A stretch of DNA of 38,173 nt, from positions 1 to 38,173 of the forward strand of contig DATMML010000121.1 of NCBI GenBank assembly GCA_035570235.1. Direction: 5' to 3'. A model generated the notes under the pieces. The model was not told the origin of the DNA. It ran no database searches and saw only the letters and a list, made by a program, of their open reading frames with translations. Every line of letters starts with the position of its first letter. Position 1 is the first letter of the stretch. Position numbers and translations under genes: made by a program. Shown here piece after piece: positions 25,944 to 27,891 of the stretch. Origin of the DNA: Vicinamibacteria bacterium (GTDB lineage: Bacteria; Acidobacteriota; Vicinamibacteria; Fen-336).

Positions 25944-26824
25944 CTTCCCTCCCCCCCAAAAAGCCCGAGCCGGCGCCCCAGGCCTGGGATCTCATAGGAC
26001 ACGCCGAAGCGGAGCAGGAAGCGGTGGCTGTTGCTGTTCAGGCCGAAGGTCGGGGAAACGCGGAACGTCACCCCGCGTGGATGCATCCAAGCCAGCAGGG
26101 GCGCGATGTAGTGGGAGGTGTCCCTGAGCCCGAGGCCTTGGGCGTCGCCCAGGCCGCCATACATCTCCACCCCGAGGACGAAGTTCTCCCGACAAAAGCT
26201 GCAAGGGTCGGGCGAAGCGGCCAGGGCCAGCGGCCGGCTGATGCCCACGGAGTAGCCGAACTCCCAGGGGCTATTGGCCAGATTCTTCTCGGCAATGATG
26301 TTCTCCGCCAGGTTGAAGCCCCTAAAGTTGCTAGAGAGGATCAGCTTGATCTCCATCTCCCGCTTTCTTACCCGTCGCGCCTGGTCGTTGGGTACAGCGT
26401 GGTCCGCTTCGCCGTCGTGCCCCACCACTTCGAGAAGGGTCTTGTCCGCCTCGTTGATGCTTTCAAACTCCATGTAGAGAACGGGGTTGATGCGGTGCTC
26501 CAGCCTCTCCAGCCGGAGTCGGTTCTCCCAGCGGAACCCGGTGAAGATCGCGCTGTCGTTCCGGGTGCCCTGGCCGTCGAGATAGAACTCGGTTGTCCAC
26601 CACCCCTTGACGCCGTACTCGAGCTCGGTCCAGGAAGCCAAGAAGGCACCCCCTCCCCGCTGCGTCCCAAAAATGGGATTGACGGCAATCTCCAGGCTGT
26701 CCGGTTCCTCCATCTGGTGGTTGTAAGTAATGAAGAAGGGCCGCTCCTGGGCCTGGGCCTTTTGAGACATGAGGCTCGTGAGCACGATCAGGGAAAGGAC
26801 TAAAATCCGAATCCCTCGGCTCAT
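25940..26824 (-). CDS. Predicted outer-membrane beta-barrel protein
   Basis: 294 residues. Signal peptide MSRGIRILVLSLIVLTSLMS ends at AQA, then ERPFF. The mature part has repeated amphipathic strands with alternating aromatic and polar residues: ASWTELEYGVKGWWTTEFYL, IFTGFRWENRLRLE, INPVLYMEFESI, and the closing FRVSPTFGLNSNSHRFLLRFGVSYEI. A small CSFC pair (about 208-211) is in one loop. ATG with GGGAGC four bases upstream. It is coupled to the cytochrome c gene and is the first gene after the AT-rich palindromic promoter. Function is unknown; iron-linked regulation is suggested by the operator only. Confidence 0.75.
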   Translation of the reverse strand: MSRGIRILVLSLIVLTSLMSQKAQAQERPFFITYNHQMEEPDSLEIAVNPIFGTQRGGGAFLASWTELEYGVKGWWTTEFYLDGQGTRNDSAIFTGFRWENRLRLERLEHRINPVLYMEFESINEADKTLLEVVGHDGEADHAVPNDQARRVRKREMEIKLILSSNFRGFNLAENIIAEKNLANSPWEFGYSVGISRPLALAASPDPCSFCRENFVLGVEMYGGLGDAQGLGLRDTSHYIAPLLAWMHPRGVTFRVSPTFGLNSNSHRFLLRFGVSYEIPGLGRRLGLFGGEGR

Positions 26825-26851
26825 TGTTGCTCCCAGTAGATCATATTCAAG

Positions 26852-26873
26852 TAGTTATATTTAAACTAGTTAT
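26852..26873. repeat. Direct repeat TAGTTAT pair within the AT-rich leader
   Basis: TAGTTAT occurs at 26852-26858 and again at 26867-26873, 15 bases apart. The first copy also forms a partial dyad with AACTA at 26864-26868. It lies between the predicted promoter and the barrel gene start codon, so it could be a second operator or simply AT-rich leader. Confidence 0.4.
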
Positions 26874-26886
26874 GGGTTCGGTCACG

Positions 26887-26915
26887 GTCATAATGAAAAT
26901 GAAATTGAATTTCAT
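26887..26915 (-). promoter_or_regulatory. Predicted sigma-70-type promoter of the barrel/cytochrome operon
   Basis: On the minus strand ATGAAA (26910-26915, 4/6 match to TTGACA) is followed by a 17-base spacer and TATGAC (26887-26892, 4/6 match to TATAAT). The palindrome at 26892-26922 covers the -35 and the spacer, so a bound repressor would block RNA polymerase. Predicted start of transcription is near 26880. Confidence 0.45.
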
Positions 26916-26922
26916 ATTCATT
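26892..26922. promoter_or_regulatory. Fur-box-like inverted repeat (metal-responsive operator candidate)
   Basis: A 31-base dyad centred on G26907. The left arm (26892-26906) and right arm (26908-26922) are each 15 bases and pair at 14 of 15 positions; the core ATGAAATT-G-AATTTCAT is perfect. The ATGA/TCAT hexamer rhythm is like classic Fur boxes. It lies in an AT-rich island that stands out sharply from the surrounding DNA. Fur is an inference; another Fur-family member (Zur, PerR) or an unrelated dimer could bind. Confidence 0.6.
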
Positions 26923-27111
26923 TAAAGTCCGCACTCTATCGAGCCGGTGGTCGCTTGTCAACCGGCCCGGAGGTGGGGCGGAAGAAGTGTGCGCGCCGGG
27001 CGCGCTCGGCGCGGAAAAACGCCCGCGTCTTCTTCGGGGGAGGAGCTATACTACGCCCCAATCACAGGGTCCCGATAGCTGCGGTCGGAAGAGCACCCGT
27101 GCTCCTTCGAC

Positions 27112-27120
27112 AGGGAGGAG
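27112..27120 (+). promoter_or_regulatory. Strong ribosome binding site that decides the CsgG-like start
   Basis: AGGGAGGAG stands three bases before GTG at 27124. It supports the GTG over the later ATG at 27184, even though the GTG adds about 20 residues before the hydrophobic signal. Confidence 0.6.
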
Positions 27121-27123
27121 ATC

Positions 27124-27891
27124 GTGAGACACGTCCATGGTGCGCAGGCGCTCGAAGCGCGCGGCCGGGTGGGGCCGGATGGCATGAGGTGGCCCTTCGC
27201 CGGGCTCGGACTGCTGGCGCTCGCGGGGGTCTTGGCCCTGCCCGGGACCGCCCGGCCCGAGCCCTCGCCGAAACGCATCCCGATCGCGGTCCTGGACTTC
27301 GACTACGGGACCATCCAGGACCGCTGGTGGGGACAGGCCGACATCGGCAAGGGGTTGGCGACGCAGGTCGTGGACGCCCTCGTCGAGGACGGGACGTTCC
27401 GGGTCATCGAGCGAGCCAAGCTCGCCACCATACTCGGTGAGCAGGACTTCTCAAAGACCAACCGGGCGGAGCCGGACGCGGCAGCTCTGGCCAAGGTGGG
27501 CAAGGTGCTCGGCATCCGCTACATCTTGGCGGGCTCCATCACCAAGTTCGCGAGCTCGGCCAAGAAATTCGGGGGCGGTGCGGCGGGGGCGGTGGCTCGG
27601 AGTGTCACCCCTTTGGGAGCCTTCTCCTTTCGGAAGGTCAAGCATGAGGTGGAGCTGACGGCGCGCCTCATCGACACCAAGACCGCGGAGGTGGTGGCTT
27701 CGTTCAAGGGCGCCGGCCTCTCCAAGAAGGGCGGCGGGATCGGGCTCGAGACCGGCGCGGGCGGAGAGGGCGCGACCTTGAATATGACCTCGGGCGACTA
27801 CAAGATCAGCGGCCTCGGCGAGGCCCAGGAACAAGCCGCCCTCGAGCTGGTGCGCAACCTGCTCGCCCAGAGGAGCGAGATCCCCGACTAG
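27124..27891 (+). CDS. CsgG/HfaB-like exported protein
   Basis: 255 residues. After a long polar N-region, a hydrophobic signal (FAGLGLLALAGVLALPGTA, about 26-44) precedes RIPIAVLDFDYGTIQDRWW. The motifs IGKGLATQVVDALVEDGTFRVIERAKL and ALAKVGKVLGIRYILAGSITKF are the CsgG fold that forms secretion nonamers for curli or acts as a periplasmic nucleoside-like domain. There is no lipobox cysteine, unlike true CsgG, and no CsgE/F/A genes are near. A Gly-rich insert ([15 protein letters not shown]) breaks the domain. -10-like TATACT at 27047-27052. Role in secretion is not established. Confidence 0.8.
   Translation: MRHVHGAQALEARGRVGPDGMRWPFAGLGLLALAGVLALPGTARPEPSPKRIPIAVLDFDYGTIQDRWWGQADIGKGLATQVVDALVEDGTFRVIERAKLATILGEQDFSKTNRAEPDAAALAKVGKVLGIRYILAGSITKFASSAKKFGGGAAGAVARSVTPLGAFSFRKVKHEVELTARLIDTKTAEVVASFKGAGLSKKGGGIGLETGAGGEGATLNMTSGDYKISGLGEAQEQAALELVRNLLAQRSEIPD

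Follow-up and report, generated by a model that had tools for sequence, protein, structure and literature searches.

A putative Fur operator at a barrel/cytochrome c operon in Acidobacteriota, with counterparts at FTR1 permease genes

The window, that is the whole 38,173-base stretch of DNA analysed here, carries on its minus strand an outer-membrane barrel gene followed by a gene for a small c-type cytochrome (Table 1). An earlier note, made from the sequence, had described such a coupled pair below an AT-rich dyad, and the two reading frames do overlap, by 4 bases. The cytochrome ORF matches Cytochrome_CBB3 (E 1.2e-13) and holds one CxxCH motif, while the barrel finds no match among Pfam families, NCBIfam models or PDB sequences. 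An AlphaFold2 model of the barrel, built on 61 sequences, has a mean pLDDT of 90.4; with its 12 strands and its matches to solved barrels, the computed fold is a closed, even-stranded antiparallel barrel with a signal sequence, the N-terminal helix of residues 3-19 being the presumed signal peptide. Seven glutamates and one CxxC are invariant in all 61 sequences. The CxxC lies between strands 8 and 9 of the model, and would face the periplasm if both chain ends are periplasmic. Assigned by strand parity, the lumen side bears about 15 acidic and 7 basic residues. The GNAT and NAD synthase genes further downstream were considered as operon members and rejected, as they belong to other families and lie beyond a gap. 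No P19/FtrA, FtrB or EfeO/EfeB partner was recognised in the window operon.

Table 1. Coordinates of the operon and of its control region, in positions of the window
Feature	Position	Strand	Remarks
Small monohaem cytochrome c (Cytochrome_CBB3), 137 aa	25530..25943	-	frame overlaps barrel stop
Outer-membrane 12-strand beta-barrel (model), 294 aa	25940..26824	-	invariant CxxC, acidic lumen side
Extended Fur box (predicted)	26892..26922	.	31-base dyad, 14/15 pairs, three overlapping 7-1-7 sites
7-1-7 site, first of three	26894-26908		step of 6 bases to the next
Core 7-1-7 site TGAAATTnAATTTCA	26900..26914	.	perfect; middle of three overlapping sites
7-1-7 site, last of three	26906-26920		step of 6 bases from the core
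-10 hexamer TAGAGT	26933..26938	-	17-base spacer from TTGACA
-35 hexamer TTGACA	26956..26961	-	TTGAC at like distance from dyad in relatives

In front of the barrel gene lies the AT-rich island that the earlier note had seen in this GC-rich DNA (26% GC vs 69% for the window). The near-perfect dyad that it reported there, centred on 26907, holds up well: it is the only odd dyad in the window with at least 14 of 15 pairs, and none of 5000 dinucleotide shuffles of the region reached 14. Its inverted repeats have the TG ends and the 7-1-7 arrangement by which a Fur box is recognised, and they overlap in 6-base steps. The Fur box consensus is given as GATAATGATAATCATTATC in PMC4506495, which also treats the base contacts of Fur. 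By its sequence, the dyad is an extended Fur box of the ordinary kind.

The position of the dyad relative to the promoter differs from the one first proposed. The earlier note had laid it over the -35 element and spacer, a placement that we reject: within 26780-27130 just one stretch looks like a promoter, the minus-strand TTGACA-N17-TAGAGT at 26961-26933, and it lies upstream of the dyad. The expected start site therefore falls just ahead of the dyad, which would span about +5 to +35 if transcription begins some 7 bases past the -10 hexamer. Computation finds this position conserved. Among promoters that have a site, 54/75 show TTGAC 20-90 bases ahead of the dyad centre, and 47 of its 56 occurrences fall at 48-56 (controls, 2/22), so the architecture in the window is the common one. 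The pair of TAGTTAT repeats nearer the start codon, also pointed out in the note, exists (26852 and 26867); its proposed role as a second site was dropped, as the pair has no counterpart upstream of the two nearest orthologues and nothing else speaks for it.

Searching the window's genome for TGAAAWTNAWTTTCA with at most one mismatch, the kind of scan that the note had called for, gives two places: the barrel operon and G000:C37:203287-203307, a site that overlaps the start of an ORF whose 646-aa product has FTR1 (iron permease) and cytochrome c domains. The only other perfect 7-1-7 core in the genome is this one in front of FTR1. Allowing two mismatches adds three sites, of which one marks the start of a PerR-like gene and the others fall within long ORFs, and at three mismatches the search is unspecific (56 matches vs 19 for a backward control). 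The FTR1 box (L012 1480-1530; L027 around 5687) overlaps the start codon and also encodes the first residues, MKLKFNFI; at the barrel of another genome, G084, the operator overlaps the start in the same way. As for regulators, the genome encodes one canonical-clade Fur (G000:C137), whose best PDB matches are Fur proteins, and a PerR-like protein. The gene of the latter (G000:C85:13524-13895; L030 8525-8980) has the 7-1-7 box TGAGAATAATTATCA immediately ahead of its start, and a rubrerythrin-like ORF comes after it, an arrangement that is likely to be a self-regulated peroxide unit.

How widespread is the barrel? Among 84,980 species genomes, a scan turned up at least 64 barrel loci, and all the matches listed are titled Acidobacteria or taxa within; of 396 genomes drawn from the phylum, 28 contained a barrel match of any strength. 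In the 61 listed loci that extend far enough, a cytochrome c comes after the barrel in 59; a Fur-family gene adjoins the barrel in 28 of the 64 listed, five of them divergent. FTR1 was tried as a neighbour of the barrel and rejected, tblastn giving no match in the flanks examined. A search of 73 genomes with the barrel found no permease in 25 (5/19, 11/28 and 9/26), some of them at least 96% complete (G170, G304, G497, G383), and is thus not an obligatory partner everywhere. At four FTR1 loci (L159, L160, L164, L168) the gene upstream on the same strand encodes a conserved protein, some 228 aa long, that has a YHEMLHLKHPVR-like motif.

Conservation of the dyad upstream of orthologous operons was scored with a 7-1-7 pattern (maximum 21, cut-off 18), a degenerate pattern written after many of these promoters had been viewed, with shuffles and controls scored alike. 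All half-site types together, a score of at least 18 is reached by 40/65 barrel promoters, 29/39 FTR1 promoters, 12/344 control ORF upstreams and 6/2060 shuffles, counts that come from related genomes and are not independent. Classic Fur boxes precede the barrel in the two nearest relatives and in further lineages, and variant 7-1-7 dyads in others. Orthologous barrels that had not been read before reach 18 in 5 of 11 cases, at least two of the loci (L048, L051) resembling species already covered, and more distant barrel relatives in 0 of 6. The remaining 25 of the 65 barrel promoters have no dyad at this score, and at L088, L094, L095, L097, L100, L108 and L119 it is missing despite an adjacent Fur gene. 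The 39 FTR1 promoters do not include those of G283, G379, G338, G468, G216, G477 and G175, which on reading hold three classic boxes, three Rrf2-like sites and one with neither; also left aside were second FTR1 fragments in G509, G510 and G124, a fragment in G541 and a truncated copy in G543. With sites upstream of orthologues, the 7-1-7 geometry, a canonical Fur gene and FTR1 as co-target, the Fur-box-like reading of the earlier note is well supported, and neither outcome that the note had named as refuting it, a lack of further copies before metal genes or a lack of the dyad at orthologous operons, was observed.

Other repeats were seen at some of these loci. Between the fur gene and the barrel promoter of L102, L104, L118, L121, L125 and L130 there is a further repeat, TTGCA-N4-TTGCA(A), whose spacing is unlike that of the 7-1-7 operator; in many cases TGAAAC and an AT-rich stretch come after it. 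At L094, L100 and L108, where a Fur gene is adjacent and no 7-1-7 dyad is present, a long inverted repeat immediately ahead of the barrel gene has the probable ribosome-binding site in its loop (GGTTTTGCC-AAAAGGA-GGCAAAACC in L108), and might act on translation.

The half-sites vary between genomes, and so do the Fur proteins. In a tree, the Fur proteins of barrel genomes fall into two groups with 100/99 support, canonical Fur (clade 1) and a clade 2 that holds all barrel-adjacent Fur genes in the tree, from which 9 Fur loci and 5 adjacent Fur genes are omitted; the fur beside the barrel in L104, outside the tree, is placed in clade 2 by adjacency. Operators were tabulated against clades for the surveyed genomes other than 8 of the 50, which had no Fur, a weak Fur or an unassigned one. 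The 8 genomes with clade 1 only, the window's among them, have TGAAATT-type boxes at the barrel (8/8) and at FTR1 (8/8). In the 21 with clade 2 only, this type is found at 0/21 barrels and 0/18 FTR1 genes; the barrel has C-type sites in 18 and none in 3, and FTR1 has 10 C-type sites, 4 hybrids and 4 with none, the gene not being found in 3. The 10 genomes with both clades combine the two, with TGCAAC-type or similar sites at 9/10 barrels, one being a hybrid, and TGAAATT-type boxes at FTR1 in all 9 that have the gene. Three genomes with a further Fur variant, Vicinamibacteria-like in our reading, have TGAGA half-sites at FTR1 (3/3) and at the barrel (1/3). The idea that barrel and FTR1 of any one genome always share an operator type was considered and fails in the two-clade genomes, where types are mixed; the Fur clade accounts for the mixture. 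The computation shows that operator type follows Fur clade.

In 12 clade-2 genomes, TTGCAACTNAGTTGCAA occurs genome-wide at 1 to 5 sites each, and TGCAACTnAGTTGCA matches in 12 genomes lie at fur, at the barrel and, in six, also at FTR1, with some elsewhere. Among the TTGCAACTNAGTTGCAA matches read (loci L157-L174), those besides fur and barrel include six that precede FTR1, one that precedes a protein with a TonB-receptor-like start, as judged by that start only, and a few elsewhere; L165, L169 and L171 are examples of loci away from all three targets.

Some promoters without a Fur-type dyad carry instead GAC-N7-GTC sites, which we take to resemble IscR/RirA motifs. This Rrf2-like motif is found in 8/104 barrel and FTR1 promoters vs 2/344 controls, by a pattern that was written after promoters had been viewed and with 13 test promoters picked because the motif had been seen in them. 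A Fisher value of 5.7e-8 from the same analysis uses a hand-tallied table and ignores relatedness. The site of Occallatibacter savannae (L112), a cultured relative with the barrel/cytochrome unit, is also Rrf2-like. Across six Fur-poor or Fur-lacking genomes there are four exact GACCRAWTTAGTCNNNA matches, all in barrel or FTR1 promoters: at the barrels of G540 and G541, at FTR1 of G283 and at an FTR1-like gene of G541. G540 and G541 gave no Fur match in the Fur survey. A one-mismatch site precedes feoA-feoB in G540 (L284, G540:C1:518725); most of the other one-mismatch sites, when read, had no evident iron gene. The feoA-feoB site suggests that an Rrf2-type iron regulator may operate in the lineage of G540.

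What would such an operator control? Common control with FTR1, by Fur operators with two or three kinds of half-site and by Rrf2-like sites alike, is best explained if the barrel and cytochrome serve iron acquisition, and FTR1, with feoAB in one genome, as fellow targets would indicate iron rather than another metal. We consider it quite likely that the dyad is the Fur operator of an envelope iron-uptake unit working with FTR1, in keeping with the earlier note's metal-regulated uptake or electron-transfer unit, for which the FTR1 co-target and the conserved Fur-type sites speak. In iron-replete cells, iron-loaded Fur dimers would bind two or three of the overlapping 7-1-7 sites past the start and block transcription. 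Under iron limitation, the barrel/cytochrome operon would be released together with the FTR1 permease encoded elsewhere in the genome. The barrel would then most probably let iron cross the outer membrane, and the periplasmic monohaem cytochrome c would move the electron of the Fe(II)/Fe(III) change required by an FTR1-type permease. FTR1 permeases are thought to work with ferroxidation.

Could the box answer to another Fur-family regulator, of the PerR, Zur or Mur type, and hence to peroxide, zinc or manganese? The 7-1-7 sites of Fur-family paralogues look alike, and the PerR-like gene of this genome carries the related box TGAGAATAATTATCA at its start, ahead of the rubrerythrin-like ORF. However, the co-target here and in many relatives is an iron permease, the canonical-clade protein finds Fur proteins as its best PDB matches, and in genomes without a clear Fur the Rrf2-like sites mark barrel, FTR1 and feoAB, so that we regard this option as improbable. 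It is harder still to credit that the dyad is an intrinsic feature of AT-rich DNA or RNA, such as a hairpin, an UP-like element or a chance palindrome, with no repressor involved. An island of 26% GC might yield such things, but shuffles of the region never did (0/5000), the dyad keeps its place downstream of the promoter, and its half-site varies from one Fur clade to the other although the 7-1-7 geometry is kept.

A different question is the direction in which electrons flow. The cytochrome might send them to Fe(III) outside the cell, through the barrel or across it, which would make the unit an assimilatory iron reductase or electron conduit; a barrel and a c-type cytochrome in one operon do recall porin-cytochrome complexes, and the invariant CxxC between strands 8 and 9 would be periplasmic if both chain ends are. 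Yet 12 strands are far below the 26 of MtrB, a cytochrome with one CxxCH is by itself no wire across a membrane, and the pairing with FTR1 fits electron acceptance better. We judge the conduit unlikely, though deserving of more weight than the other two options.

Acidobacteriota are abundant in soil, and to our knowledge their iron uptake has been little studied. The tie between the barrel/cytochrome pairing and FTR1 across Acidobacteria points to an unstudied iron-uptake route. Going further, we tentatively propose, as an idea that has merit but is slightly more apt to be wrong than right, a previously unrecognised iron-uptake system of Acidobacteriota, made of a dedicated outer-membrane channel, its lumen acidic, and a periplasmic cytochrome c to accept the electron of Fe(II) during FTR1 import, and whose control was rewired at least twice with the same targets kept. 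Canonical Fur would have been replaced by a dedicated clade of Fur with an altered half-site and, in other cases, by an Rrf2-like iron regulator. If true, the rewired control is a natural experiment in the joint change of Fur proteins and operators. The gene pair, of which the literature listings and abstracts covered (subscription journals mostly outside their scope) hold no account, gains a testable role; the link of barrel and cytochrome to FTR1 is one of regulation and not of gene neighbourhood; and sets of genomes in which Fur clade and half-site change together make Fur specificity directly testable.

Several known systems share parts of this arrangement. The modelled barrel resembles in fold FapF (Z 21.3, rmsd 2.7 A over 214 residues, 8% identity), KdgM of the KdgM/NanC group (Z 19.6, rmsd 1.8 A over 170 residues, 11% identity) and a COG4313 channel (Z 19.6, rmsd 3.0 A over 215 residues, 7% identity), but shares no family model with them and has other operon partners. 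Like the MtrCAB and Pcc conduits, the operon encodes an outer-membrane barrel together with a c-type cytochrome. Such conduits combine a large barrel with multihaem cytochromes, whereas with one CxxCH and a 12-strand barrel no multihaem cytochrome able to span the barrel is found here. FTR1 in Acidobacteria and the P19/FTR1 system are treated in PMC7661733 and PMC6083913. With FtrABCD, EfeUOB and P19/FTR1 the unit has in common an FTR1 permease (PF03239), co-regulated with the barrel in the window's genome and in relatives, and fused to an FtrD-like PF10080 domain in the two clade-2 genomes tested. It differs from them in that FTR1 of the window's genome carries a cytochrome c domain and in that an outer-membrane barrel and a separate cytochrome c are added. 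The closest likeness in control is to the Fur regulon, with its overlapping AT-rich 7-1-7 dyads, TG...CA ends and iron-transport promoter, and with a canonical Fur in the genome; unlike there, a barrel/cytochrome c pair that lacks annotation is controlled, from a box placed downstream of the start site, and in relatives the half-sites are TGCAACT, TGCAAAT or TGAGACT, in company with another Fur clade or variant. New against this background are the controlled unit, the link that it has with FTR1 throughout the phylum, and an operator that changes as the Fur clade does.
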